This document shows, one piece after another, positions 603 to 39,069 of a DNA stretch of 39,385 nt. The translations under genes and the position numbers were made by a program. The notes below the pieces were generated by a model. It saw nothing but the letters and a program-made list of their open reading frames with translations. It was not told where the DNA came from and did not search any database. The stretch spans positions 1 to 39,385 of the forward strand of contig VBHA01000080.1 of the NCBI GenBank assembly GCA_005889495.1. The letters run 5' to 3'. The DNA is from Chloroflexota bacterium (GTDB taxonomy: Bacteria; Chloroflexota; Dormibacteria; Dormibacterales; Dormibacteraceae). Numbering within the stretch: position 1 is the stretch's first letter; each line of letters begins with the position of its first letter.

Positions 603-1807
603 ATGGAAACGCAAACTCCGTCACGAGTAACCATGGACGCCGCCACCGACAAACAGGTGGTAGCCGAATTCGTCGAGGGATTGCTGGCCGGCACGGGGTG
701 GGAGATCGAGAAGATCCGATCTCGGGGCACGCGCCTGGAGCCGCCCGACTGGTTCTGGACCTCGTTCGCCATCGCCATCCAGAAGGACGGGGAGGAACGC
801 GACCTGAGGATGGTCGCCAAGGGCGCCCTCAACCCCGAAGCCTGGGAAAAACTGAGGGAGAGGCTCGAGCACAGGGGTGGGGAACAGCCGTGTGACCCGG
901 TCAACGGCATCGGCTACCCGGTCCTCTTCCCCGAGACCCAGCATGCCTACTGGTTCTACCCCTTCGACCCACGGATGCCGAACCTGCCCTTCGCCGACGA
1001 CCCGAAGCAGATGGCCGCGATCCTGCTTGGACTCGACTACGCATCCGCGCCCGCCGACAGCGTGAGCGTCGAGCGCGTGCGCTACGTGCCGGAGGTCGGA
1101 GCGATCCTCTGCTACACGATCAACGCGGCCGGTACCCCCGCCAAGATCTATGGCAAGGTCCAGCCGGGGGATCGCGGCTGGCGGACATATAAGGTAGTGG
1201 AGGGCCTCTGGCGGGCGGCCGCGCGCTACCCCGGATACCTGTACCTTCCCCGCCCCCTCGGCTACGTGGAGGAGTTCGGGCTGCTGCTCGAGGAGGGCGT
1301 GAAGGGCCGTCCCGTCAGCAACCGGCGCACGAGCGTGGAATTCGGCCAGATGGCGATGGCGGCCGCGGAGGCGCTCGCGGTGATCCACGAGTCCGAGGTC
1401 GAGGCCGACGAGCGAATCGACATGGAGGCCGAGCTGGGACGCCTGGATCGGGTGGTCGACCAGTTCGCCTACGTGCTGCCGAACGGGCAACCCTCCTCGA
1501 CTTCGACTACTTCACGCAAGCCGAGACGAGCTATGACCTGGGCAAGTTCTGCGCCTACCTGATCCCTTCCCATCCCAAGAACTGGACCGACTCAGTGGCC
1601 GCGGAAGAGGTCCGGGCGGAGTTCATCAGGCGCTACCGCGAGCTTCGTCCGCACGCCACCCTCCAGCGCTTCGGCATCTACGAAGCGCTCCAGCTGGCGC
1701 TGCGTGCCATGGCCTTCATGTGGGCGCAGGTGCCCGGGTGGGAGCGGGTCGCCGAGACGTACCTCGTCCTCGCGTTCGAGCGCCTCAAGAGCCGCCTGCC
1801 CGAATAG
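603..1807 (+). pseudogene. Broken phosphotransferase (APH/choline-kinase fold), catalytic loop deleted
   Basis: Two collinear pieces in different frames make one protein. The first (603 to about 1490, ATG 603 or ATG 633) has a kinase N-lobe-like part and a middle part ending LDRVVDQFAYVLPNG. The second (from about 1493 through 1807) reads LLDFDYFTQAETSYDLGKFCAYL, the DFD metal-binding segment and C-terminal helices of the aminoglycoside phosphotransferase fold. Between them this fold always carries the Brenner loop (HGD-x-K/H-P-x-N). It is absent: the two blocks join directly near 1485-1493 with a change of frame. This is therefore an internal loss of an estimated 60-90 bases, not a simple one-base frameshift. 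Without the catalytic Asp the product could not phosphorylate. Whether the loss is biological or an assembly join is not decidable here. No clear ribosome binding site precedes either ATG. Confidence 0.7.
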
Positions 1808-4753: not shown

Positions 4754-4810
4754 TGGTCGCGATGAACAACCCTGAGAGCCCGTTCCTGGATAGCGTCGGG
4801 AGCCGGGGGC

Positions 4811-6187
4811 GTGATCACGGCGCTGCTGACCTTCGCCGAGGTGGCAGACGCCGAATGGGTCGCCTGCGCGCGCACCGACGGCGAGAGAGCCCTGATCGCG
4901 CAGCACGGCACCACGTGGGACGCGCCGCTGCTTCGCGGCGCGACGCGCCTCCACTACGCGACGCCAACGCCGGAGCAGTACGAGCAGTACTACTCGGTCA
5001 TCTCCAACCCGGTGCTGTGGTTCGTCCAGCACTACCTCTTGGACCTGGCCAACCAGCCGGTCATCAACGGCCGCATCCACCGCGCCTGGAGGAACGGCTA
5101 CGTCGAGGTCAACAAGCAGGTCGCTCGCAGGGTCGTGGAGGTGGCGAGAGGGCTGCCGGGACGCCCCCTCGTGATGGTCCACGACTACCAGCTTTACCTC
5201 GTGCCTCGCCTCGTGCGCGAGCAGCTGCACGGCGCGATCATCCAGCACTTCGTGCACATCCCATGGCCGACGCCGCAGTACTGGAAGGTGCTTCCCCGGG
5301 AGATGCGCGACGCCATCCTCTTCGGGCTGCTCGGTTGCGACATCGTGGGTTTTCAGACGAGCCTGGACGTCCGCAACTTCCTGATGACCTGCGAAGAGAA
5401 CGCAGGCCTGGCCGTGGACGAGCGCGAGCGCGCCGTGCTCGTCGACGGCCGGGTCGTGTACGCGCGCGCCTATCCGATCTCGATCGACATCGCCGGCACC
5501 ACGCGGCTCTCCTACTCGCACGGCGTGATGGTCGAGGAGCGCAAGCTGCGCGACTGGCGGCCGGAGCAGCTGATCGTGCGGATCGACCGCACCGATCCTT
5601 CGAAGAACATCGTCCGCGGCTTCCTCGCCTACGAGAAGCTGCTCGCGCACCACCCGGAGCTCAAGGGCCGCGTGCAGTTCTGGGCCTTTCTCCAGCCGTC
5701 GCGCCAGGACGTCGCCGTCTACCGCAACTACGTGCGCAAGGTCCGGCAGGTCGTGCAGCGGATCAACGCCCAGTTCGGCGCGCAGGGTTGGCAGCCGGTC
5801 CGGCTCGAGCTCGGCGAAAGCGTGCGCAAAGCGATGGCGGCGATGCGCAACTTCGACGTCCTGCTCGTCAACTCGGTCTACGACGGGCTGAACCTGGTGG
5901 CGAAGGAGGGCGCGCTCGTCAACCGGTCAGATGGCGTGATCGTGCTCTCCGAGAACGTGGGCGCTCACGAAGAGCTCCACCAGCATGTGCTCTCGGTCAA
6001 CCCCTTCGACATCGAAGCGACGGCCAACGCGATGCACCAGGCGATCGTGATGGGCCTGGACGAGAAGCGGCGCCGCAACGAAGGGGCGCGGGAGGTCGTG
6101 CGGACCAACGACATCGCTCGCTGGATCACTCGCCAGGTCCAGGACATCCGCGACCTGGCAGCCGAGCCAGGCCTGAGAGCCGGTTAG
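4811..6187 (+). CDS. otsA: Trehalose-6-phosphate synthase (GT20), N-terminally short
   Basis: 458 aa. GT20 enzymes transfer glucose from UDP-glucose (or another NDP-glucose) to glucose-6-phosphate. Visible motifs: VHDYQL (124-129), HIPWPTP (149-155), the phosphate/nucleotide-binding RIDRTDPSKN (257-266), DGLNLVAKEG (358-367) and VLSENVGAHEEL. The family normally begins with a strand plus SNR-x-P and a GG-containing loop that contacts the sugar phosphate. Here GTG 4811 starts at VITALLTF, and the in-frame upstream codons read SGAGG, the end of that loop. A TGA at 4763 closes the frame, so no SNR segment can be encoded. GGGAG (4798-4802) sits 8 nt before GTG 4811. Either the protein really lacks about 25-35 N-terminal residues, or the upstream sequence is altered. 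Activity is therefore uncertain although the rest of the site is intact. Confidence 0.88.
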   Translation: MITALLTFAEVADAEWVACARTDGERALIAQHGTTWDAPLLRGATRLHYATPTPEQYEQYYSVISNPVLWFVQHYLLDLANQPVINGRIHRAWRNGYVEVNKQVARRVVEVARGLPGRPLVMVHDYQLYLVPRLVREQLHGAIIQHFVHIPWPTPQYWKVLPREMRDAILFGLLGCDIVGFQTSLDVRNFLMTCEENAGLAVDERERAVLVDGRVVYARAYPISIDIAGTTRLSYSHGVMVEERKLRDWRPEQLIVRIDRTDPSKNIVRGFLAYEKLLAHHPELKGRVQFWAFLQPSRQDVAVYRNYVRKVRQVVQRINAQFGAQGWQPVRLELGESVRKAMAAMRNFDVLLVNSVYDGLNLVAKEGALVNRSDGVIVLSENVGAHEELHQHVLSVNPFDIEATANAMHQAIVMGLDEKRRRNEGAREVVRTNDIARWITRQVQDIRDLAAEPGLRAG

Positions 6188-6188
6188 G

Positions 6189-6632
6189 TTAGAAGAAGCC
6201 TCGGCGAGCGACGGTCACGTCGCGGTAGAAGATGATCGCCATCAGGCGGGCGAGGACCCAGGCGATGAGCGCGTAGACGAGCATCGCGACCACCACCGAC
6301 ATCTCGAGCTGCGACTGGTTGTTGCCGATCGTAGGCAGCAGGTTGTGGAAGGGGGCCAGGAAGAAGTCGGTCACGTTGTACACCCACTGCGTGAAGGCCG
6401 CGGACGTGTTGGCGCCCAGGAGCTTCAGGACGAGGCGGATGAGCAAGAGGCCGTCGATCACGCCAAAGACGAGGTAGATGAGGTCCATCGCGCGGAGCCC
6501 CGGGTTGACCCTGCTCACGACCGCGGTGCTCGGAGGCGCGGGCGGAACCGGCTCGTCCCGGATCAGCCGCCGGTGCTCGTGCTCACGGCCCGTCTCGGGA
6601 TCGCGCTCGATCTCTGAGTCCCTGCGTTCCAT
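6189..6632 (-). CDS. YggT-family integral membrane protein
   Basis: 147 aa. Residues 1-45 form a charged, probably cytoplasmic tail (ERDPETGREHEHRRLIRDEPVPP). Three or so membrane segments follow: about 49-70 (MDLIYLVFGVIDGLLLIRLVL), about 80-100 (FTQWVYNVTDFFLAPFHNLLP, the signature region of the family) and about 110-135 (LEMSVVVAMLVYALIAWVLARLM). YggT proteins are poorly understood; roles in osmotic or division-linked membrane functions have been suggested. ATG 6632 has no Shine-Dalgarno sequence and lies only about 7 nt after the T tract of the terminator of the upstream gene. It may depend on read-through, or on a promoter embedded in that hairpin. It converges with otsA, whose stop is one base away. 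Confidence 0.88.
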   Translation of the reverse strand: MERRDSEIERDPETGREHEHRRLIRDEPVPPAPPSTAVVSRVNPGLRAMDLIYLVFGVIDGLLLIRLVLKLLGANTSAAFTQWVYNVTDFFLAPFHNLLPTIGNNQSQLEMSVVVAMLVYALIAWVLARLMAIIFYRDVTVARRGFF

Positions 6633-8881: not shown

Positions 8882-8930
8882 TTCGCCTGAAACAGGGCCT
8901 CGGACGGGCCTTTTGGCAGCCCGGAGGCAT

Positions 8931-25800: not shown

Positions 25801-26219
25801 GCCTGCAGCCGTGTGAACCAGGAGTAGCCCTCGTCGAGGTGCCCCCACCGCGCCTGGACGAATGCGACCCTGGGATCGACGAGCGAGCCCGCCGCACGGC
25901 GCAGGAAATCGCTCGGAGGGACGAAGTCGGCGTCGAAGATGGCGATGAGCTCCGCGCTCGTCAGGCCAAGCCCGTACGCGAGTGCCCCGGCCTTGAATCC
26001 CGCGCGCGAGCCGTCCGCGACGTAGCGCTCGTTGTAGATCGGGAGCTGAACGCAAACGGAGGGAAGAGTCCTGTCACCGCCCCACCTGTGGGGAGGTGGC
26101 CCAGCGGGCCGGAGGGGCAGGCGAATTGCGCACACCGTGAGATACATCAGGTTCAGGCCGAAGGCGAAAAGCAGGACGCTGGTCGCGATGAGCAGGGCGA
26201 CCGCGATGATCGCGATCAC
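22860..26219 (-). CDS. Giant membrane glycosyltransferase: GT2 + GT-C (PMT-like) + periplasmic beta domain, GT2 part damaged
   Basis: 1119 aa from GTG 26219, which overlaps the upstream TGA as GTGA; an earlier frame start at 26321 is less likely. Order: TM about 2-30, then a GT2 cellulose-synthase-like domain about 53-270 with LPIYNERYV, DAD 96-98, TED 187-189 and QQSRW 225-229, plus TMs to about 470. A GT-C/PMT-like polytopic region about 470-830 includes EPFEDGYGHWLIAA and NPVFLFTSGSAVVEP. The C-terminus from about 930 is soluble and all-beta. Two oddities: residues about 33-52 (LPLRPAGPPPHRWGG) are encoded by a REP-like palindrome, and YNERYVA runs directly into DGSRAGFKAGAL. The usual 45-55 residues between, including the first nucleotide-binding VLDDSTDD motif, are missing in frame. 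GT2 activity is therefore doubtful in this copy. Confidence 0.85.
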   Translation of the reverse strand: MIAIIAVALLIATSVLLFAFGLNLMYLTVCAIRLPLRPAGPPPHRWGGDRTLPSVCVQLPIYNERYVADGSRAGFKAGALAYGLGLTSAELIAIFDADFVPPSDFLRRAAGSLVDPRVAFVQARWGHLDEGYSWFTRLQALFIDFHFLVEQAVRSSRGYFVNFTGSAGVWRRAAIEDAGGWTASTLTEDLDLSYRAQLRGWKAVFLGDLVVPEELPVSIDAYRSQQSRWATGSFQCAFRLLGPVWRSKNRVALKVQATIHLLAYGVGPLMLVQLVCYPALLLAVGRQRIPWQLGDALLLGVCVAASPWVGFIVAQARRGRPWWTALPSLFCQVIGAGMSLNVIFALVRALRPGGTFVRTPKHRITHRGQQWRDQAYVRVGDPRTALEAALGVGALAIVPLAVTMGQGLLAVYSGLFAAGFLTVTALSLFDLLQVLTLRRLGRRAFARVQAAAPFAALLGLVAILLLLAAQIAEPFEDGYGHWLIAATLASTGRLSDPLFGMQDTWLPGYQVLAGALLRLFGLWHLDLLKAMGAVLGVVTAACVYSLAPNLRQARIAVVLLVLNPVFLFTSGSAVVEPLLTALLMSAALAAVRGRMKLAALLAALACLTSTKAWIWVAAAAMFALVEVARSRSRVASRARAIAWAAPALGVLVFLQLGFAPATHSLARGTQEVASASTRGSLPADAFTRVAELATTYGVAALPLVVFAILGVGFALRRHTTALWRFVYVPSAFYLAAVFGLVGIGAYSGSHRYLYPALPAIALLAAATLDRYSPAVRLAAVGASAMLALAFLPVFLAFGAENAGLVAAGRSASGGRGVLLTDSPVAAYYSGRAPSDITGSQSLPQDPAQAIGWMRAHRVTAVVVEDISYYQATHVLPELTQGEASPPFLPIGDQRQYKVSGGKTVYAYRLLPVLSMEPTTAGKTAPLAKGMTMGAATGEGMGFGVPIVHYADGWVYARTSSTVQVSPVSWTRTFELDEIGGDAAHRYAFVPIAPRGQIEVAYTLEASGIAIAVRPVWIATGYSEVGILNEQSAAFDDFAAAGQPTLAGTGFGSWVPVTGSWARLRSGSLSVEWSLSRLPEASLYAGREQIAPDFDWAGLDYIFPASFNGATYRITVQEAR
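26079..26120 (+). repeat. REP-like palindromic repeat, copy 2 (inside the giant glycosyltransferase gene)
   Basis: Reads CCCCAC-ct-GTGGGGAGGTGGC, then CCAGCGG, then GCCGGAGGGG. It matches the 14921-14963 copy in both conserved blocks and differs only in the central hairpin. It falls in frame in a linker of the antisense glycosyltransferase gene and encodes its Pro/Arg/Gly-rich insert. Confidence 0.75.
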
Positions 26220-28874: not shown

Positions 28875-29603
28875 GTGCTCACCGTCACCATCGACCGGCC
28901 GGCGGTGCGAAACGCCGTCGACCCGGAGACGGCCGACGCGCTGGAGAAGGCCTTCAAGCGCTTTGACGCAGACGCCGCGCAGTCGGTCGCCGTGCTCACC
29001 GGCGCGGGCGGCAACTTCTGCGCGGGATTTGACCTCAAGGCTCTGGCCGCCGGCGCCGACTACGGCCTTACCCAGGGCGGCCGAGGCCCCATGGGGCCGA
29101 CCCGGATGCTGCTCGACAAGCCCGTGATCGCGGCGATCGAGGGCTACGCGGTCGCGGGCGGCCTGGAGCTTGCTCTCTGGTGTGACCTGCGGGTGTCCGC
29201 GCGTGACGCCACCCTAGGGGTGTTCAACCGCCGCTTCGGCGTCCCGCTCATCGACCTGGGCACGGTGCGGCTTCCCCGCATGGTTGGGCAGGGCCGCGCC
29301 CTCGACATGGTCCTGACGGGCCGGCCGGTCCCGGCCGACGAAGCGCTGCGCATCGGCCTGGTCGAGCGCGTCGTCGAAGCCGGGCAGGCACTCGCGGTGG
29401 CGCGCACGCTCGCGGGCGAGATCGCCTCGTTCCCACAGGCTGCGCTGCGTGGCGACCGGCGAAGCCTGCTGCGGCAGTGGTCGCTCAGCCTCGAGGAGGC
29501 GATGCTGGCCGAACACGAGGCGGGGATGGACGCGATCGCGAACGGTGAGGCCCAGGCGGGCGCAAAACGGTTCGCCGAGGGTGGCGGACGGCACGGCGCC
29601 TGA
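28875..29603 (+). CDS. Enoyl-CoA hydratase/isomerase (crotonase) family protein
   Basis: 242 aa from GTG 28875. Crotonase signatures: oxyanion-hole segments TGAGGNFCAGFDLKAL and VIAAIEGYAVAGGLELALWCDLRVSA, with the first catalytic-type Glu in GGLE. The second hydratase Glu position is occupied by FGVPLID, so hydratase chemistry is not assured and isomerase or another activity is possible. In-frame codons before 28875 encode VRTEVDGA, which matches the usual first beta strand of the family. They contain no ATG/GTG/TTG; the natural start would be the codon at 28851, which here is GTA. Either GTG 28875 is used and the first strand is lost, or a start codon has mutated. It lies directly after pruA. 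Confidence 0.88.
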   Translation: MLTVTIDRPAVRNAVDPETADALEKAFKRFDADAAQSVAVLTGAGGNFCAGFDLKALAAGADYGLTQGGRGPMGPTRMLLDKPVIAAIEGYAVAGGLELALWCDLRVSARDATLGVFNRRFGVPLIDLGTVRLPRMVGQGRALDMVLTGRPVPADEALRIGLVERVVEAGQALAVARTLAGEIASFPQAALRGDRRSLLRQWSLSLEEAMLAEHEAGMDAIANGEAQAGAKRFAEGGGRHGA

Positions 29604-29609
29604 GCGGCG

Positions 29610-30092
29610 TCAGGCGGTCGCCTTCTTCTCCAGCGGGGCGGCGCCGCCCGCTTCCAGGTGCTCCGCGACCCGGTTGAGGAGTCGCCTCAGGTCGGCGCGT
29701 TCCTTGGGCACCAGGCGGGAGACGGCGAGGGCCACGCGAGCGGCTCCCATGCCCCACAGGCGCTCGAAAAGCCGCTCGGTCTTGGGCGTCAGCTCCAGCC
29801 AGGTGAGCCGGCGGTCGGTGCGGTCGGGCACCCGCCTGAGGTAGCCCAGCTCCTCCAGGCGGTCGATGAGCGGCACCAGGGTTCCCGGCGTCACGCGCAG
29901 GCGTTGAGCGAGCTCCCTGCCGGTCTGCCGGCCCCATCGCCGCAGGGTGGCGAGCGCGCGGAACTGCGCCATGGTCAGGTCGACGTCCATGAAAAACCGC
30001 GCGGTCTCGTCGGCGAAAGCGGCATGCTGCCGGCCCAGCGCGAGCATGACGGAGCGGACGTCGTCTCTATCGTGTGATGGGGCTGCTGCCAC
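29610..30092 (-). CDS. MarR-family transcriptional regulator of the adjacent ABC exporter
   Basis: 160 aa from GTG 30092. Winged-helix core about 40-125: TMAQFRALATLRRW, GRELAQRLRVTPGTLVPLIDRLEELGYLRRV, then the wing PDRTDRRLTWLELTP. A TTG at 30131 would extend the frame, but that codon lies inside the -35 box of the gene's own promoter, so it cannot be in the mRNA. GTG 30092 lies 10 nt after the -10 box and would start a nearly leaderless message. MarR proteins bind palindromes as dimers and release them on binding small aromatic or lipophilic compounds. The nested palindrome at 30102-30146 spans both promoters, so it very likely represses itself and the ABC genes. It converges with the crotonase gene. 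Confidence 0.9.
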   Translation of the reverse strand: MAAAPSHDRDDVRSVMLALGRQHAAFADETARFFMDVDLTMAQFRALATLRRWGRQTGRELAQRLRVTPGTLVPLIDRLEELGYLRRVPDRTDRRLTWLELTPKTERLFERLWGMGAARVALAVSRLVPKERADLRRLLNRVAEHLEAGGAAPLEKKATA

Positions 30093-30102
30093 GCTCGATT
30101 CG

Positions 30103-30131
30103 AGTATAGCGAATGAGTTGACTCCGGTCAA
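30103..30131 (-). promoter_or_regulatory. Sigma-70-type promoter of the MarR gene
   Basis: -35 TTGACC (30131-30126) and -10 TATACT (30108-30103) with a 17-nt spacer. The predicted start is near 30096, about 4 nt before the chosen GTG. Confidence 0.8.
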
Positions 30132-30145
30132 TCATTTGATATACT
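30118..30145 (+). promoter_or_regulatory. Sigma-70-type promoter of the ABC exporter
   Basis: -35 TTGACT (30118-30123) and -10 TATACT (30140-30145) with a 16-nt spacer. The predicted start is near 30152-30154, at or just before TTG 30155, so the message should be leaderless. Confidence 0.8.
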
Positions 30146-30154
30146 CAAACGGTC

Positions 30155-31888
30155 TTGCTGATCCGCCTGCTCCGTGCCTACGCACGGCCCTACGCGCGTG
30201 AGATCGGGATCGTGGTCGTGCTGGTCGTCATCCAGTCGATCGGGAACCTGTACCTGCCCAACCTCAACGCGGACATCATCAACAACGGCGTCGCCAAGGG
30301 CGACCTGACCTATATCTGGCGCACGGGCGCGGTCATGCTCGGCATCACGCTGGTGCTCGGCGTCATCGCCGTCGGCGGCGTCTACTGGGCTTCGCTCGCC
30401 TCGATGGGCGTCGGCCGGGATCTCCGCGGCGCGGTCTTCGGTAGCGTCCAGGACTTCTCGGCACGCGAGATGAACCGGTTCGGCACGCCTTCGCTGATCA
30501 CGCGCAACACCAACGACGTGCAGCAGATCCAGCTGTTCCTGCAGATCGCGCTGACGATGATGGTGAGCGCGCCGATCATGGCGGTCGGCGGTGTGATCAT
30601 GGCCCTGCGCGAGGACGTGCAGCTCTCCGCCGTGCTCGTCGTCGTCATCCCCGCGCTGGCCGCCATCGTCGCCTTCATGTTCGTCAGCGCGGTGCCGTTG
30701 TTCCGGTCGCTGCAGGTGAAGATCGACCGCATCAACCAGGTGCTGCGCGAGCAGATCATGGGCGTGCGCGTCATCCGCGCATTCATCCGCGCCGGCTACG
30801 AGGACCGGCGGTTCGAGCAGGCCAACTACGACCTGACCTCGACCGCGCTCCGGGTCAACCGGATCTTCGTCATCGCCTTCCCGGCGGTGCTCGCCGTGAT
30901 GAACTTGACGACGGTCGCGATCCTGTGGTTCGGCGGCCACCTCGTCGACAGCGGCCAGATGCCGATCGGCAACATGACCGCGTTCCTCCAGTACATCCTC
31001 CAGATCCTCATGTCGCTGATGATGGCCATCGCCCTGGTCATCCTCGTGCCTCGCGCCGAGGCCAGCTCGGCCCGCCTCCAGGAGGTGGTGACCGCGACCC
31101 CGTCGATCGAGGAGCCGGCTGACACGGTGCAGCCCTCGCAACTCACAGGCGTGGTCGAGCTGCGGAACGTCACGTTCGGTTATCCCGGCGGGGAGAAGCC
31201 GGTGCTGCACAACGTCGACTTCCGGCTTCCCCCCGGGCAGACCACGGCGATCATCGGTGGGACCGGCTCCGGCAAGACCACCCTCCTCAACCTGATCCCG
31301 CGCTTCTTCGACGTCAGCGAAGGCGGCCTGCTGGTGGATGGGGTGGACGTGCGGAAGCAATCGCTCGAACACCTGTGGGGCAGGCTCGGCATAGTGCCGC
31401 AGCGGGCCTACCTGTTCAGCGGCACGGTTGCGACCAACCTGCGGTTTGGCAACGAGGGCGCGACAGACGAGGAGCTCTGGCACGCGCTGGGGGTCGCCCA
31501 GGCGCGCGACTTCGTCGAGGCGATGGCCGGCGGGCTCGCGGCGCCGATCGACCAGGGAGGCACCAACGTGTCAGGCGGCCAGCGCCAGCGCCTGGCGATC
31601 GCCCGCGCGCTCGTCAAGCGGCCGGGGATCTATCTGTTCGACGACTGCTTCTCGGCGCTCGACGCCGGGACCGACGCTCGGCTTCGCGCCGCCCTGCGCG
31701 CGGACACGAGGGATGCGACCGTGCTCATCGTCGCCCAGCGCGTCAGCACGATCATGCACGCGGATCGGATCATCGTCCTCGACGAAGGACGGGTCGAGGG
31801 TATCGGCACCCACGCTGAGCTGATGGCCACGTGCGAGCCCTATCGGGAGATCGTGGACTCGCAGCTCGGCGAGGCGGCGGTCGCATGA
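30155..31888 (+). CDS. ABC exporter half-transporter A (degenerate Walker B)
   Basis: 577 aa from TTG 30155. Six-TM exporter domain about 15-300, nucleotide-binding domain about 330-570. Walker A GGTGSGKTT (368-376), signature NVSGGQ (471-476), Walker B IYLFDD (492-497). The residue after the Walker B Asp, normally the catalytic Glu, is Asp497, which marks a slow or inactive ATP site. The partner encoded next has an intact DE, so the pair should form a heterodimer of the TmrAB/BmrCD type. It exports lipophilic compounds, peptides or lipids; the substrate cannot be deduced. TTG is chosen because it lies about 9 nt after the -10 box and begins the exporter N-terminus LLIRLLRAYARPY. Controlled by the divergent MarR. 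Confidence 0.93.
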   Translation: MLIRLLRAYARPYAREIGIVVVLVVIQSIGNLYLPNLNADIINNGVAKGDLTYIWRTGAVMLGITLVLGVIAVGGVYWASLASMGVGRDLRGAVFGSVQDFSAREMNRFGTPSLITRNTNDVQQIQLFLQIALTMMVSAPIMAVGGVIMALREDVQLSAVLVVVIPALAAIVAFMFVSAVPLFRSLQVKIDRINQVLREQIMGVRVIRAFIRAGYEDRRFEQANYDLTSTALRVNRIFVIAFPAVLAVMNLTTVAILWFGGHLVDSGQMPIGNMTAFLQYILQILMSLMMAIALVILVPRAEASSARLQEVVTATPSIEEPADTVQPSQLTGVVELRNVTFGYPGGEKPVLHNVDFRLPPGQTTAIIGGTGSGKTTLLNLIPRFFDVSEGGLLVDGVDVRKQSLEHLWGRLGIVPQRAYLFSGTVATNLRFGNEGATDEELWHALGVAQARDFVEAMAGGLAAPIDQGGTNVSGGQRQRLAIARALVKRPGIYLFDDCFSALDAGTDARLRAALRADTRDATVLIVAQRVSTIMHADRIIVLDEGRVEGIGTHAELMATCEPYREIVDSQLGEAAVA

Positions 31889-33897
31889 TCAACCGTCCAG
31901 GAGGAGGCGGGGCGCCAGGCGCGCAGCGCCGGCAGCCAGGCGGATGGATGGGCATGGGCGGACCACCGCCGGCCAAGATCCACGACGCCGGCAGGACGCT
32001 CCGGCAGCTGCTCGGCCGGTTGCGGCCAGAGCTGCCGCTGATCGCCATCGTCGTGCTGCTGGGGACCGGGAGCGTCGTGCTCTCAGTCATCGGCCCCAAG
32101 ATCATCGGCAACGCGACCAACGTCATCTTCGACGGCATCGTCGGCAAGATGCTGCCCGCCGGATTGACAAAGGAGCAGGCAATCGCTCTGCTCCAGGCGC
32201 ACGGCAAGGGCCAGATCGCACAGATGGTCTCGGGCATGAACGTGACGCCGGGTGTCGGGATCGACTTCACCGCCCTCGGCCAGATCCTCCTCCTGGCGGT
32301 CGCCGTCTATCTGTTTGCGTCAGTTTTGATGTGGGCTCAGGGCTATCTCATGGCAGGGGTCGCGCAGCGCACGGTCTACGCCATGCGGCGGGACGTCGAG
32401 GCCAAGCTCTCGAGGCTGCCGCTCAAGTACTTCGACAGCCATCCGCACGGCGACGTCCTGAGCCGGGTGACCAACGATGTCGACAACATCAGCACGACCC
32501 TGCAGCAAGGATTGAGCCAGATCGTCACGTCCGTCCTGACCGTGGTCGGCGTGCTGGCGATGATGCTGTGGATCAGCTGGCTCCTCGCCTTGATCGCGCT
32601 CGTCACCGTCCCGCTGTCCGTGGTGGTGACGCTCTTGATCGCCCGGCGCTCGCAGCGCCAGTTCGCCGCCCAGTGGAAGTGGACCGGCAGCCTCAACGGG
32701 CACGTCGAGGAGATGCACACAGGCCACGCGCTCGTCCAGGCGTTCGGCCGCCGGGCGAGGGCGCGGGAGATCTTCGACGAGCACAACCAGAAGCTCTACG
32801 AGGCGAGCTTTCGGGCCCAGTTCCTGTCCGGCATCATCCAGCCGGCGATCCAGTTCCTGGCCAACCTGAACTACGTCGCGATCGCGGTCATCGGCGGCTA
32901 CCGGGTCGCGACCGGGACGATGACGCTGGGCGACGTGCAGGCTTTCATCCAGTACTCGCGCCAGTTCACGATGCCGATCATGCAGATCGCCGGCCAGATG
33001 AACCTTCTGCAGTCAGGCCTGGCGTCGGCGGAACGAGTCTTCGAGCTGCTGGACGCGGAGGAAGAGAGCTCGGACGTCGACACCGGCGCGAGGCTCGGCG
33101 ACGTCACGGGCGAGGTGGCGCTGGAGCACGTGAACTTCCGCTACGAGCCGGACAAGCCGCTGATCGATGACTTCAACCTGCAGGTCCTGCCCGGCCAGAC
33201 GGTCGCCATCGTCGGCCCCACCGGCGCCGGCAAGACGACCATCGTCAACCTCCTGATGCGCTTCTACGACATCGACTCCGGACGAATCCGCGTCGACAAG
33301 GTCAACACCGCTGAGATTCCGCGCGACGAGGTGCGCAGGGCGTTCGGCATGGTGCTCCAGGACACCTGGCTGTTCGCGGGCACGATCCGGGACAACATCG
33401 CCTACGGCAAGGAGGGCGCCACCGAGGAGGAGGTCGTCGCTGCGGCCCAGGCCGCGCACGTCGACTCCTTCGTCCGCACGCTGCAGAAGGGCTACGACAC
33501 CGTCCTCGACGAGGACGCGTCGGACCTTTCCTCCGGGCAGCGGCAGCTCCTGACCATCGCCCGCGCGTTTCTCGCCGACCCCGGCATCCTGATCCTGGAC
33601 GAGGCGACGAGCAACGTCGACACGCGGACTGAGGTCCTGATCCAGAAGGCGATGGCTCAGCTGCGCCGAGGGCGAACCAGCTTTGTCATCGCCCACCGGC
33701 TGTCCACCATCCGGAACGCCGACACCATCGTCGTGATGGATGGCGGCAAGATCGTCGAGCAGGGAAGCCACGCGGAGCTGCTGCGGCGCGAAGGCTTCTA
33801 CTACCGGCTCTACAACAGTCAGTTCACCGAGGCGTGGTCGGCTGAGGGGAACGGCCAGGCTCCAGCTGCCGCGTCGCACGCCCCGGCGCGTGCGTGA
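31885..33897 (+). CDS. ABC exporter half-transporter B (catalytic Walker B)
   Basis: 670 aa from ATG 31885, overlapping the stop of subunit A by 4 bases (ATGA). Gly/Pro-rich N-terminal tail (1-30), six-TM domain about 48-345 with an extra periplasmic-side insertion about 85-130 (KMLPAGLTKEQAIALLQAHGKG), and a nucleotide-binding domain about 410-645. Walker A GPTGAGKTT (444-452), signature LSSGQ (548-552, Ser replacing the first Gly), Walker B ILILDE (568-573) with catalytic Glu573, and an H-loop in VIAHRLS. The degenerate LSSGQ would face the Asp497 site of subunit A and the canonical signature of A would face this DE site. One active and one inactive ATP site is the expected heterodimer layout. 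Its 3' end overlaps the convergent GT87 gene by 74 bases. Confidence 0.95.
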   Translation: MINRPGGGGAPGAQRRQPGGWMGMGGPPPAKIHDAGRTLRQLLGRLRPELPLIAIVVLLGTGSVVLSVIGPKIIGNATNVIFDGIVGKMLPAGLTKEQAIALLQAHGKGQIAQMVSGMNVTPGVGIDFTALGQILLLAVAVYLFASVLMWAQGYLMAGVAQRTVYAMRRDVEAKLSRLPLKYFDSHPHGDVLSRVTNDVDNISTTLQQGLSQIVTSVLTVVGVLAMMLWISWLLALIALVTVPLSVVVTLLIARRSQRQFAAQWKWTGSLNGHVEEMHTGHALVQAFGRRARAREIFDEHNQKLYEASFRAQFLSGIIQPAIQFLANLNYVAIAVIGGYRVATGTMTLGDVQAFIQYSRQFTMPIMQIAGQMNLLQSGLASAERVFELLDAEEESSDVDTGARLGDVTGEVALEHVNFRYEPDKPLIDDFNLQVLPGQTVAIVGPTGAGKTTIVNLLMRFYDIDSGRIRVDKVNTAEIPRDEVRRAFGMVLQDTWLFAGTIRDNIAYGKEGATEEEVVAAAQAAHVDSFVRTLQKGYDTVLDEDASDLSSGQRQLLTIARAFLADPGILILDEATSNVDTRTEVLIQKAMAQLRRGRTSFVIAHRLSTIRNADTIVVMDGGKIVEQGSHAELLRREGFYYRLYNSQFTEAWSAEGNGQAPAAASHAPARA

Positions 33898-35032
33898 GCG
33901 CGGCCGCTGAGAGCAGCAGTAGCGCCCCCAGCTCGGCGACGATGACGGGCACGGGCCCCCACACAGGCTCGCCTTCGACCGCCAGGACTCCAGCCAGGAC
34001 GTAGACCCATGTCCACGCCGGTGGTCTGGCGCGGAGCACCAGCCAGGCCGCAAGCCCGAGCATCGCCAGGTCGTCGAGATGGACGTAGGGCGTAGCAAGG
34101 ATTCCCCCGGCAAGCGCGCATGCATAGACCCACTCCAGGCCTCGGTGTCGTATCCGATACGCGATCAGCATGGTCCACGAAGCGATGAAGACCTGGGCCG
34201 GCCGCGCCGCGTCACCGAGCAGATAGGTCAACGTGAGCTCGCGGTTCACGGGCACGCCGGCCGCAAAGCTCAGACGCTCGAAGTAAGAGCGGACGCCGTC
34301 CGGTCCAAGCGCCAGGACGGACGCCGCCGCCAGGAGGCCGACCGCGATGAGGCTGCCGACGAACGCTCGTCGCTGGCCGGCCACCAGCAGCGCAGGCGGG
34401 ATGAGAAAGGCAAGCTGCGGCTTGAGGGCGAGGGCGGCCAGGGCAACGCCGGCCCAGAACGGCCGGCCTGCGCGGAGCAGCGCGTATGAGCCCGCGACGC
34501 CCAGGGCGACCAGCAGGCCGGGCTGCGCCAGCTGCAACCCATAGATCACCGGCAGCCAGCCGACGGCAGCGGCCAGGAGAACGACGCGAGCCCGTCCCGC
34601 GTCGGGGGCGGCGAAGTACCACACCAGGCCGAGGGCAGCGACCAGGACAGCGCTCCAGGCCCAGTAAGCGACGGGATACGGCAAGACGGTGAACGGCACC
34701 GCCAGCCATGCCACGGGTGGCGGGCTGATGTAGCGCGCGAGCTCCGCGATCTTGATCCCCGAGCCCATGGCGTCGAGCTGGGCTTGCTGCAGGTTCAGGT
34801 CGTAGATCGAGCTCCAGCCGTGGGCGAGGCCGATCCTGGCGGCGGCGAAGTAGAAGGTGAAGTCGTTGTGGAAGTGGTCCGCGGCGTACGCGGCGGCCCA
34901 CTGATAGAGGTCGAAGGCCGCGAACAGCACCGAGGTGACCGCCCCGGCGGCGATGCCAAGGTTGCGCCACCGCCCGGAGCCGCCGATCAGAGTGTCCCGC
35001 GAATCTGCGTCGGGAGCCCTGGGGCGTGACAC
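33824..35032 (-). CDS. GT87/DUF2029-type polytopic mannosyltransferase-like protein
   Basis: 402 aa from GTG 35032. About nine or ten TM helices. An N-terminal periplasmic loop carries NDFTFYFAAARIGLAHGWSSIYD, the region with the acidic catalytic residue in GT87 (PimE-like) enzymes, followed by YISPPPVAWLAVPF and later LKPQLAFLIP and TPYVHLDDLAMLGLA. GT87 enzymes use polyprenyl-phosphate mannose to extend envelope glycolipids; the exact acceptor here is unknown. The start has no Shine-Dalgarno sequence, but a TAACCT -10-like box lies 7 nt upstream, suggesting a leaderless mRNA. It converges with and overlaps the ABC subunit B gene, and diverges from the BNR-repeat protein gene. Confidence 0.85.
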   Translation of the reverse strand: MSRPRAPDADSRDTLIGGSGRWRNLGIAAGAVTSVLFAAFDLYQWAAAYAADHFHNDFTFYFAAARIGLAHGWSSIYDLNLQQAQLDAMGSGIKIAELARYISPPPVAWLAVPFTVLPYPVAYWAWSAVLVAALGLVWYFAAPDAGRARVVLLAAAVGWLPVIYGLQLAQPGLLVALGVAGSYALLRAGRPFWAGVALAALALKPQLAFLIPPALLVAGQRRAFVGSLIAVGLLAAASVLALGPDGVRSYFERLSFAAGVPVNRELTLTYLLGDAARPAQVFIASWTMLIAYRIRHRGLEWVYACALAGGILATPYVHLDDLAMLGLAAWLVLRARPPAWTWVYVLAGVLAVEGEPVWGPVPVIVAELGALLLLSAAALTHAPGRATRQLEPGRSPQPTTPR

Positions 35033-35045: not shown

Positions 35046-35201
35046 CCTGACGGTCCTGCCTATTGACATGCGCTGACGAGCACTGAAACGATTGACGCTG
35101 GCTGCTCGCTGGCTTCGGCTGGAGAGATGGGGGTTGGTTTCGAGCCTGGGGGGACACCGGCTCAGGTCCTGCCGTTCAAACGTGTTCAGGAGAGGGGTCG
35201 A

Positions 35202-37205
35202 ATGAAACGGCTTGCCATTCCTTTGCTCGTGTCGTTGTGTGCTTTGGCGATCGGCGCCGGCTTCGTGCGACTCGCCGGCAACACTTCGACACCAAACGTC
35301 CGCGCGGCTGAGCTCGGCATCGACGACGAGCTGACGCCGACTCAGGAGCGCCTGGTCTCCGGCTTCGCGTCGTACACGCTCGGCAAAAACGCCGAGAACA
35401 ACGGCCAGGCCGGCGAGCAGGCTCCGCGCAGCTATTTCCCGCGTGGGAGCGACTCGTGCCCGACCAACCAGAGTTCGAACATCAAGGTCAACCAGAACTG
35501 CCTCAACCTGAGTGACGCCGACCTCCAGGGTCGCGGCCAGGCTCAGAACGAGGAATCCATTCAGGTCAACCCGAACAACACCAACCAGGTGGTCGCCTCC
35601 TACAACGACTACCGGCGCGGTGATGGAACCTGCGGAGTGTCGTTCAGCCGCGACGGCGGGCGCGTCTGGAACGATTCGACCGTACCGGACAACTTCACGC
35701 GGGGCGGGACGCGCTACCAGGGTGCGCCTCGCGAGTATTGGCAGGCTGGTGGCGACACTTCGCTCGCCTGGGACTCCAAAGGCAATGCCTATCTGTCGTG
35801 CCAGCTGTTCAAGCGCGGCCCCGCCACCGCTGGCGACCCAGACCGGGCGAGCGGCTTCTTCCTGTACCGCTCCACCCAGAACGGCGGCGCCTCCTGGAAC
35901 TTCACCGGCCGCTCGATCTTCGAGACGGGGTTCCAGCGCTCGTTCCTCCCCCTGGAGGACAAGCAGTTCATGACCGTGGACAACAACTCGAGCGCGTGCT
36001 CCGGAGCGCCGGCGACGGCCACGCCGGGCGCGAGCTGCACGCCGTTCCAGGACCGCATCTACGTCACGTGGACCGAGTTCGCGCCCACGGGCACGGCCTT
36101 CATCTACGAGACGTATTCCTCGGACTACGGCGAAACCTTCAGCCCGCGACACCTCATCAGCGTGAACAGCCCGCTGTGCCCGAACAACCAGCCCATCCCG
36201 GGCGAGGCCTCGAACTGCGACGCCAACCAGTTCTCACAGCCGTTCGTCGGGCCTGACGGGGTGCTCTACGTGATCTTCAACAACTTCAACAACGGGATCC
36301 AGAACCCGGCTGACAACCACAATCAGATCCTCCTGGTGAAGTCGGTCGACGGCGGCAACACGTTCGCCGCCCCGGTCAAGGTGGCCGACTTCTATGACCT
36401 CCCCGACTGCGCGACCTATCAGAACGGCCACGACTTCGGCCGCGCATGTGTCCCGGAGAAGGGACCAACGAACACCTCGATCTTCCGCGCGACCAACTAC
36501 GGCTCGGGCGCGGTCAACCCGTCGAACCCGGCGCAGGTGGTGGTCGCGTTCGGCTCCTACATCAACCCGCATTCCAAGGAGTCGAATGGGTGCGCGCCCG
36601 CGGGGACGAGCCCCGCGACCGGCCAGAACCTCTTCACCGGGGTCAAGACGCCTGGCGCATGCAACAACGACATCCTGGTCAGCGTTTCCAGCGACGGAGG
36701 CGCGACGTTCACGGGCACCACGACCGACCCGCGCGCCCTGCAGAGCGTCAACCCTGACGCCGGCCAGGCCACGACCGACCAGTGGTGGCAGTGGATCGCC
36801 TTCACCAAGAACGCCAAGCTCGCGACCTCCTACTACGACCGCCAGTACGGGACGGACGAGCAGACCGGCTACTCGGATGTCAGCCTCTCGGGCTCCGGTG
36901 ACACGACGGGATGGGGCGTGCAGCGCGTGACGAGCTCTTCGATGCCGCCTCCGACCCAGTTCCCGGAGTCGAACGGATTCAGCGCCTTCTGGGGCGACTA
37001 CACCGGGCTCACGGCAGACACGCAAGCCCATCCGTTCTGGAGCGACACGCGCGACCCGGACCTCTTCGCCTGCACGACAAGCAGCGGCGCGGTCCAGACG
37101 CCGCCATCGGTGTGCGGTGCGACGGTGCCGAACGGAAGCGGTTCCGACTTCCCGGTCAACGACCAGAACGCCTACACGGCGAACAACTCGGTGCCCGGCA
37201 AATGA
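35202..37205 (+). CDS. Secreted BNR/Asp-box repeat (sialidase-like) protein
   Basis: 667 aa from ATG 35202, with AGGAGAGG about 6 nt upstream; an earlier in-frame start at 35127 would bury the signal peptide. Signal peptide 1-25 (KRLAIPLLVSLCALAIGAG). The mature protein shows five Asp-box motifs of the S-x-D-x-G-x-x-W/F type at about 149, 224, 306, 381 and 496, with spacing of about 75-115 residues typical of a six-bladed propeller. Many Cys (SDSCPTNQ, NQNCLNL, GTCGVSF, SNCDANQ, PDCATY) and Asn suggest a disulfide-stabilised extracellular protein. Asp boxes are structural; a sialidase active site (Arg triad) was not identified, so the activity is unknown. Ends before a strong hairpin. Confidence 0.88.
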   Translation: MKRLAIPLLVSLCALAIGAGFVRLAGNTSTPNVRAAELGIDDELTPTQERLVSGFASYTLGKNAENNGQAGEQAPRSYFPRGSDSCPTNQSSNIKVNQNCLNLSDADLQGRGQAQNEESIQVNPNNTNQVVASYNDYRRGDGTCGVSFSRDGGRVWNDSTVPDNFTRGGTRYQGAPREYWQAGGDTSLAWDSKGNAYLSCQLFKRGPATAGDPDRASGFFLYRSTQNGGASWNFTGRSIFETGFQRSFLPLEDKQFMTVDNNSSACSGAPATATPGASCTPFQDRIYVTWTEFAPTGTAFIYETYSSDYGETFSPRHLISVNSPLCPNNQPIPGEASNCDANQFSQPFVGPDGVLYVIFNNFNNGIQNPADNHNQILLVKSVDGGNTFAAPVKVADFYDLPDCATYQNGHDFGRACVPEKGPTNTSIFRATNYGSGAVNPSNPAQVVVAFGSYINPHSKESNGCAPAGTSPATGQNLFTGVKTPGACNNDILVSVSSDGGATFTGTTTDPRALQSVNPDAGQATTDQWWQWIAFTKNAKLATSYYDRQYGTDEQTGYSDVSLSGSGDTTGWGVQRVTSSSMPPPTQFPESNGFSAFWGDYTGLTADTQAHPFWSDTRDPDLFACTTSSGAVQTPPSVCGATVPNGSGSDFPVNDQNAYTANNSVPGK

Positions 37206-37259: not shown

Positions 37260-37805
37260 TTGGTGGCCGTGGTCGAGACCGGCTTCGAGCCCCGAATCGT
37301 CGAGCTGAGGGACCGCACGAAGGTCCACCTCCGCCCGATCGCGCCCGAGGACGAGCCGCTGCTGCACGAGGCGGTCGCGGCGATGTCTGAGCGGACCGTC
37401 TACTTCCGCTTCTTCTCGCCGATCAAGAGGATGTCCGATGCCCTTGCGCACCGGCTCGCGGTGGTCGACTACAACGATCGCTTCGCGCTCGTGGCCACGA
37501 CACACAAGCCCGCGGCCAAAGAGCGCATCGTCGGCGTCGCCCGCTACGACCGCGCCCGTGGCACAGACATCGCGGAAGTCGCGGTGGCCGTGATCGATGA
37601 GTTTCAGCGCCGCGGTCTGGGCAGCGTGTTGCTGGTGGAGCTGGCCAGGGTGGCGAGGAGGCACGGGATCAAGGCCTTCCAGCTCATCGTGCTGCCCGAA
37701 AACCGCGAGATGCTCGGCCTCCTGCGCAAGATGGGCTGGATCCACCAGGCGAAGGTCGCCGGCGGAGTGTACGAGATCTCGTTCGACCTGCCGGAGCAGG
37801 GGTGA
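37260..37805 (+). CDS. GNAT-family N-acetyltransferase
   Basis: 181 aa from TTG 37260; GTG 37263 is equally possible, and neither has a ribosome site. Fold landmarks: strand 1 VHLRPIAPEDEPLL, the helix AMSERTVYFRFF typical of GNAT domains linked to acyl-CoA synthetase-like proteins (Pat/AcuA type), VGVARYDRA, the acetyl-CoA loop EFQRRGLGSVLLVELARVA (Q/R-x-x-G-x-G), and a C-terminal half with VLPENREMLGLLRKMGW. It probably acetylates a protein lysine or a small amine. The stop overlaps the LysE-type exporter start by 4 bases (GTGA), so the two are coupled. Confidence 0.85.
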   Translation: MVAVVETGFEPRIVELRDRTKVHLRPIAPEDEPLLHEAVAAMSERTVYFRFFSPIKRMSDALAHRLAVVDYNDRFALVATTHKPAAKERIVGVARYDRARGTDIAEVAVAVIDEFQRRGLGSVLLVELARVARRHGIKAFQLIVLPENREMLGLLRKMGWIHQAKVAGGVYEISFDLPEQG

Positions 37806-38320
37806 TCGACACCACCCTCATCGCCTTCGCGGGGGTATCGGCGCTGCTTGCCGTGACGCCGGGCCCGGACATGGCGGTGGTGACGAAGAATGCCCTCGCT
37901 CATGGGCGCCGCGGCGTGATGCTCACCACGAGCGGGATCGCGCTGGCGCTGGTGGTCTGGGTCACAGCCACGGCGATCGGACTCTCCGCGTTGCTGCGCA
38001 CATCGGGCGAGGTGCTCCTCGCCCTCAAGATCGCCGGTGCGTGCTACCTCGCGTACCTGGGAGTCCGGACGCTGCTCGAATCGCGCTCGAAGCCCGGCGA
38101 CCTGCGTGTCGCCGCGCCGCTTGCCGTGCCGGCGCATGCGGACTTCAGGCAGGGCTTCCTCTCCGCGATCAGCAACCCCAAGCTCGGCGTCTTCTTCGTC
38201 ACCTTCCTGCCTCAGTTCGTGCTCCCCGGGCAGCAGGTGCTGCCTAGATTGCTGGAGCTGGGCGTGACCTTCGCCGTCATCGGCTGGCTGTGGATGAAGA
38301 CGAACTCCGTGCACATGTAG
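37802..38320 (+). CDS. LysE/RhtB-family amino acid exporter, C-terminus replaced
   Basis: 172 aa from GTG 37802. Normal N-terminal part: SALLAVTPGPDMAVVTKNALAHGRRGVMLTTSGIALALVVW (family signature with PGPD), a TM about 60-80, IAGACYLAYLGVRTLL, and FRQGFLSAISNPKLGVFFVTFLPQFV. Family members are about 200-210 aa and end with two more hydrophobic stretches. Here the protein breaks after VTFAVIGWLW and ends MKTNSVHM, which is simply the reverse strand of the adjacent zinc-ribbon gene. About 35-40 residues and the last membrane helix are missing, so transport activity is doubtful. The break near 38290-38296 probably marks a deletion or join that also altered the convergent gene. Confidence 0.8.
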   Translation: MIDTTLIAFAGVSALLAVTPGPDMAVVTKNALAHGRRGVMLTTSGIALALVVWVTATAIGLSALLRTSGEVLLALKIAGACYLAYLGVRTLLESRSKPGDLRVAAPLAVPAHADFRQGFLSAISNPKLGVFFVTFLPQFVLPGQQVLPRLLELGVTFAVIGWLWMKTNSVHM

Positions 38321-39069
38321 TCGACCGCCTGTCCGTCCTGCAGTCCGTTCGCGAAGTTTTTGGCGTCCGCGGGATCCGCCACGAACACCACGACGGTGAC
38401 CCCGTGCAACTGCGCGGCCACGACGCCGATGCGGACCTTGGTCGCCGTCTGCGAGGTGCCGACCAGGTTGGCGGAGTAGACCGCGCCGACTCCCAGCACC
38501 TCGCCGACATGAGCACCCTTGAGGGCGTTCAGCCAGGTGACGTCCTGCCACTGCGACGAGGGCAGGCTCGACACTGTCGCCCTCACCGCCTGGTCGGGGG
38601 TCTGTCCGGTCGAACCCTTGACCACGACCTGCCCCACGCGGGTCCCCAGGGTGATGCCGTAGGCGTCCTGGTTGCGGACCGACCACCGAGACGTGTAGTT
38701 GACCTGGAAGTTGTAAGCAGAGCTCCGAAACGATGCCTGCTCCGGCAGCGGGGTGATGAATTTCGGCGCGCAGTTGACCGTGCAGGTCGAGTGGCCGCCC
38801 CGCACGAGCTGCGAAAAGGCGATCCCCCCGACCACGAGCCCGACCACGACGAGGACTGCGATCAAGCCTCCGGCGATCAACGCAGCCCCGAGTTTGGGCC
38901 GCCCGGGCGCCGGATATATCGCGCGCGGTGCTGGGGCGTAGCTGTAGACGGGACGGGCCGCGACGGCCTGCATGAGCAAGGGGGTTCCGCATCTTCCGCA
39001 GAATCCGGCTCCGGGCGCGAGAGGTGCGCCGCACCGGCCGCAGTAGCGCGTCTGGGTCGCGACCGCCAT
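38212..39069 (-). CDS. Membrane protein with N-terminal zinc ribbon, C-terminus probably altered
   Basis: 285 aa from ATG 39069, with GGGAG about 7 nt upstream. Zinc ribbon C10-GR-C13 and C24-GR-C27, a Pro-rich linker (PAPRAIYPAPGRP), TM about 59-82 (LGAALIAGGLIAVLVVVGLVVGGIAF), then an extracytoplasmic mixed alpha/beta domain (FRSSAYNFQVNYTSRWSVRNQDAYGITLGTRVGQVVV to VVAAQLHGVTVVVFVADPADAKNFANGL). The natural end is probably near AVDYMCTEFVF; the last about 27 residues (IHSQPMTAKVTPSSSNLG and on) are antisense to the LysE gene and look non-native. The start overlaps the stop of the next zinc-ribbon gene (TGATG), so the two are coupled. No function is known. Confidence 0.8.
   Translation of the reverse strand: MAVATQTRYCGRCGAPLAPGAGFCGRCGTPLLMQAVAARPVYSYAPAPRAIYPAPGRPKLGAALIAGGLIAVLVVVGLVVGGIAFSQLVRGGHSTCTVNCAPKFITPLPEQASFRSSAYNFQVNYTSRWSVRNQDAYGITLGTRVGQVVVKGSTGQTPDQAVRATVSSLPSSQWQDVTWLNALKGAHVGEVLGVGAVYSANLVGTSQTATKVRIGVVAAQLHGVTVVVFVADPADAKNFANGLQDGQAVDYMCTEFVFIHSQPMTAKVTPSSSNLGSTCCPGSTN

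Follow-up and report, generated by a model that had tools for sequence, protein, structure and literature searches.

A probable zero-gap scaffold join truncates a LysE-family gene and its convergent zinc-ribbon neighbour in a Dormibacterota metagenome-assembled genome

The stretch of DNA analysed here (the window) comprises contig C182 in full (39,385 bp). It belongs to a genome assembled to 2.73 Mb (201 contigs; completeness 86.7%), whose closest named relatives are Dormibacterota/Chloroflexi MAGs. The window carries a LysE-family gene that converges on a gene for a zinc-ribbon membrane-type protein (Table 1), within the order GNAT, LysE, zinc-ribbon, second zinc-ribbon that is kept in those loci of the genus that are long enough to show it. 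Two convergent reading frames had been predicted to lose their natural ends at one point in this region, and this is what we find: both genes cease to resemble their relatives at the same site, which can now be placed exactly at 38298/38299.

Table 1. Features at the LysE/zinc-ribbon locus and other clean losses confined to the window (window coordinates).
Feature	Position	Strand	Remarks
Window-only loss, 124 bp in 4/4 relatives	1489..1490		inside coding region
Window-only loss, 122-123 bp vs G005 and G016	4799..4813		near start of glycosyltransferase family 20 gene
Window-only loss, 153 bp in 5/5 relatives	26012..26014		in frame, family 2 glycosyltransferase gene
LysE-family ORF	37802-38320	+	172 aa: 165 native residues, then 7 foreign
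Native LysE part, residues 1-165 and two bases of codon 166	37802..38298	+	PF01810
LysE ORF end after the junction, 7 foreign residues and stop	38299..38320	+	antisense to zinc-ribbon gene
Junction, 135-325 bp of relatives' sequence missing	38298..38299		alignments, regular expression across loci
Zinc-ribbon ORF	39069 down to 38212	-	285 aa from homology-supported start at 39069
Native part of zinc-ribbon membrane-type protein, 257 codons	38299..39069	-	PF13240
Foreign end of zinc-ribbon ORF, 28 codons and stop	38212..38298	-	antisense to LysE

Up to the junction, the LysE product resembles translocators of the LysE/RhtB type: its native residues match the family profile PF01810 with 86.6 bits, above the curated cut-off of 25.6. 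The match covers only profile positions 3-148 of 193, where the protein of the nearest relative (locus L050 in genome G005) covers 2-192, and if full length is taken to include the C-terminal segment, the window protein is incomplete, its last 43 residues being missing from the assembled sequence. Absent are 43 codons and the stop codon (132 bp), and the frame continues with a K at the junction codon followed by TNSVHM. Residues 1-164 are 82-87% identical to the proteins of 15 of the 16 relatives in the genus and 72% identical to that of G015. A LysE match is present in all 17 genomes of the genus, the window's own included, and alignment with full LysE proteins shows the gene to be full-length in the 16 others (207-208 aa in 15 of them; the G015 protein, from locus L086, is 207 aa counted from residue 2), which excludes chance. 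The predicted removal implies that relatives should not share the truncation and overlap, and none does: the LysE tail is found in 42 of 42 loci examined, a set that includes several duplicates of the same gene as well as L063, which is broken further upstream. In this last locus (other genus; 6001-6413), LysE has an internal frameshifting loss at about residues 103-126, either real or an assembly error. The predicted structure of the intact LysE protein has a mean pLDDT of 51.5 and carries no evidential weight here.

The zinc-ribbon protein is 59-71% identical, over most of its length, to the products of 15 of 16 convergent loci; in the remaining one, L018, the gene is cut by the contig end. 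The proteins of the relatives end at 255-260 aa. The joint removal that was originally proposed holds in that a single shared junction is seen against every relative compared, but the LysE loss is 132 bp rather than about 100; the neighbour, whose end was also thought to have been removed, has indeed lost its stop codon and thereby gains 28 codons, but only two or three of its native codons are gone. Judged from these alignments, the missing sequence would amount to about 135 bp or more, with nearly all of its coding part coming from LysE.

The edges of the loss are sharp. Extra sequence lies exactly at the junction in all five aligned relatives (135, 135, 149, 247 and 325 bp), and the loci matched by a regular expression (14 of 17; L007 in G001, L018 in G002 and L086 in G015 were missed, and their LysE tails were confirmed through other comparisons) have 135 bp more in seven cases and 138, 142, 143, 149, 247, 320 and 325 bp more in the others. 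Because the relatives differ in length at this point, the nearest of them (L050) having 247 bp, the size of the loss cannot be fixed to the base. In a set of 16 convergent loci (15 of the genus and that of G030 from a sister genus), LysE and the zinc-ribbon gene overlap by exactly 4 bp in nine and lie 0-186 bp apart in the other seven. Base 38298 (A) can be assigned to either side, which leaves 0-1 bp of microhomology at the junction. Thus, a sharp-edged loss of conserved sequence is found in a collinear neighbourhood, as would be left by two scaffold pieces joined with a gap of zero. Collapse of a direct repeat at 38298 was considered and rejected, as at most one base is common in the relatives' sequences. 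Loss of a terminator was also considered; when stretches of the window and L012 were scanned with a consensus, none turned up, and the single weak match in L006 falls inside the LysE coding sequence.

The LysE junction has counterparts elsewhere in the assembly. When the window was aligned with the corresponding regions from five relatives, four clean losses confined to it emerged, the LysE junction included (Table 1). Less clean differences were not counted, namely those near 2539 and 21050 (one relative each), near 6186 (four relatives, 110-566 bp following a stop codon) and near 8915 (60-65 bp, two relatives). On contig C22, three clean losses were observed, each of a single length in all relatives compared: 132 bp (four relatives), 87 bp (three) and 117 bp (three). 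The 117 bp loss, at C22:24901, deprives lysine-tRNA ligase, an enzyme that a cell needs, of 39 residues (421 aa vs 460 aa in G005), and these fall within the class II synthetase (catalytic) domain. A HisZ-like gene is hit by the 132 bp loss (its best model, TIGR00443, scores 221.6 bits and so falls short of the 271.65 cut-off), and a gene that we take to encode argininosuccinate lyase by the 87 bp loss. Among the relatives, G016 (L111 and L112 on G016:C203, joined position 34761) has a clean 64-bp loss of its own when set beside four other genomes, which may come from a join of this type too. Near position 3917 of L142 (G000:C10), G005, the one relative compared, has about 545 bp more than this contig at a sharp point.

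Clean losses of 40-700 bp confined to one genome were counted in four blocks: the window, contigs C6 and C22, and C48 over its initial 40 kb. Nine fall to this assembly, including the declared C6 gap and a loss of 42-43 bp at window position 6632, within 102,706 bases that could be compared with at least two relatives, against seven for seven relatives together in 429,334 bases. Under a strict filter (at least 80 bp, three or more relatives agreeing to the base), which was chosen after the data were seen, the counts are six in this assembly and none in the relatives. Losses are thus more frequent here than in the relatives, as zero-gap joining would lead one to expect, in blocks of which two, the window and C6, had been picked for cases already known and the other two, C22 and C48, had not. 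These latter two carry three losses on C22 and none on C48, in 58,400 bases together, and one of the C22 joins had already shown in an anchor search before that stretch was fetched. Gapless losses are absent from C6 (12 kb of comparable sequence) and from C48 (24 kb), so the joins are not everywhere.

The window itself contains no N, and therefore no declared gap lies at the LysE junction. Declared gaps do occur in the assembly: a survey of at most the first 20 kb per contig found four N runs (27, 40, 2 and 2) in 28 readable contigs totalling 324,836 bp, two further contigs being all N. All three of the gaps that were measured are too short, indicating that gap sizes are underestimated. The 2-N gap of C6 corresponds to 140 bp in 13 of 15 relatives (134 bp in one of the others and 75 bp, from a partial alignment, in the last), and the 2-N gap of C10 to 90 bp in five of nine relatives and to 93, 96, 96 and 135 bp in the rest (nine of 13 non-own loci measured, with L156, L164, L165 and L166 left out). 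The 27-N gap of C4 corresponds to 175 bp in 10 of the 15 relatives' loci measured, 178 bp in four and 172 bp in one, G012 having no locus. The 40-N gap has a flank for which the genus offers no usable match, and it could not be measured. Since the measured gaps exceed their declared lengths by some 90-150 bp, gaps that are truly this long could be set to zero and vanish.

Altogether, the sharp-edged absence at the LysE junction recurs in an assembly whose N gaps are too short, and its cause would be underestimation of gap sizes during scaffolding. On this comparison of sequences, we consider the junction to be most likely an assembly artefact, a zero-gap scaffold join rather than a real biological feature (probability about 0.86). 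The window would be a scaffold of a metagenome-derived Dormibacterota genome, in which two pieces that are true genomic neighbours were joined at 38298 with an estimated gap of zero; the 135 bp or more between them, with the LysE tail and the zinc-ribbon stop, would have been dropped, and each reading frame would then run over the join and on through its neighbour in antisense. The organism itself most likely has the two genes intact and in convergent arrangement. An artefact is favoured because four clean losses lie on this contig and three on C22, one of them through lysine-tRNA ligase, because N gaps are undersized, and because the LysE remnant is not evolving faster while all 16 relatives keep the full gene. 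Where the loss took place had been left open by the original prediction, and the assembly-wide pattern points to scaffolding, not to the organism. Several findings run against an artefact: no gap is declared at the LysE junction, C6 and C48 show no gapless loss in the sequence compared, relatives spread over 135-325 bp at the LysE point whereas at most other joins they agree exactly, and one of the C22 losses is flanked in G005 by 10-base direct repeats, a setting that a real deletion mediated by repeats would fit as well.

Alternatively, the lineage may recently have undergone a real deletion whose ends were closed by Ku-type joining; LysE would then be a probable pseudogene, and the zinc-ribbon protein would have acquired a foreign tail. 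Ku is encoded by the genome, the 0-1 bp common to both sides is what end joining can give, and the missing LysE tail is found nowhere else in the assembly, where only paralogues of 32-34% identity occur (on C48 and C26); the frameshifting LysE deletion of L063, in another genus, would be a parallel, though it may itself be an assembly error. This explanation is nevertheless unlikely: the assembly has six or more other losses of comparable length, one of which cuts lysine-tRNA ligase, its N gaps conceal 90-175 bp, and the truncation is seen in no other member of the genus. Relaxed selection, which would mark an old LysE pseudogene, was not seen: the pN/pS of the remainder is 0.200 vs 0.137-0.253 in the others, meaning that protein change is no faster. 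A very recent deletion would leave no such mark.

One could also suppose that this organism often undergoes real deletions of some 90-150 bp, perhaps of the Ku type and with little microhomology, which erode even core genes; lysine-tRNA ligase would then need a second copy, and we regard this as very improbable. It is likewise very improbable that the MAG combines different strains or species in a chimera at this point: both sides of the junction stand in a gene order conserved in the genus, and a joint tree of GNAT, LysE and zinc-ribbon places the window beside a single relative, L050 of G005 (support 0.979), against which can be set the origin of the sequence in a metagenome bin with an estimated contamination of 2.12%.

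If zero-gap joining is the cause, the gapless joins of this MAG silently truncate or cut into genes (LysE, lysine-tRNA ligase, HisZ-like, glycosyltransferases), and claims of gene loss or novel ORFs made from it need comparison with relatives; clean losses of equal length against several relatives offer a read-free way to spot such joins. Local assembly errors in metagenome scaffolds have been found with ra2.py (PMC6784885), and for IDBA-UD scaffolds, local assembly errors were corrected and scaffolding gaps filled by hand (PMC6031116). In the passages concerned, the likeness lies in a wrong sequence length around a scaffold join, found or filled there by read mapping. These passages concern other genomes and do not describe gap-size underestimation as such, and, unlike the scaffold errors they report, the joins here carry no N and look like deletions.

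A 692-aa ORF at window positions 35127-37205 scores only 23.0 bits against a BNR-repeat model (cut-off 31.4) and has no match in the regions of the five relatives compared; the two genes on either side of it are immediate, divergent neighbours in most loci of the genus. A segment of about 4.3 kb (window ~29600-33830) is common to the window and G005, amounts to about 1.85 kb in G003, and is absent in G008, G013 and G016. Some family members from other genera (L020-L022, L054, L057, L058 and L061) have the block rearranged, with the zinc-ribbon gene on the same strand as LysE, and in L054, L057, L058 and L061 the GNAT gene lies on the opposite strand.
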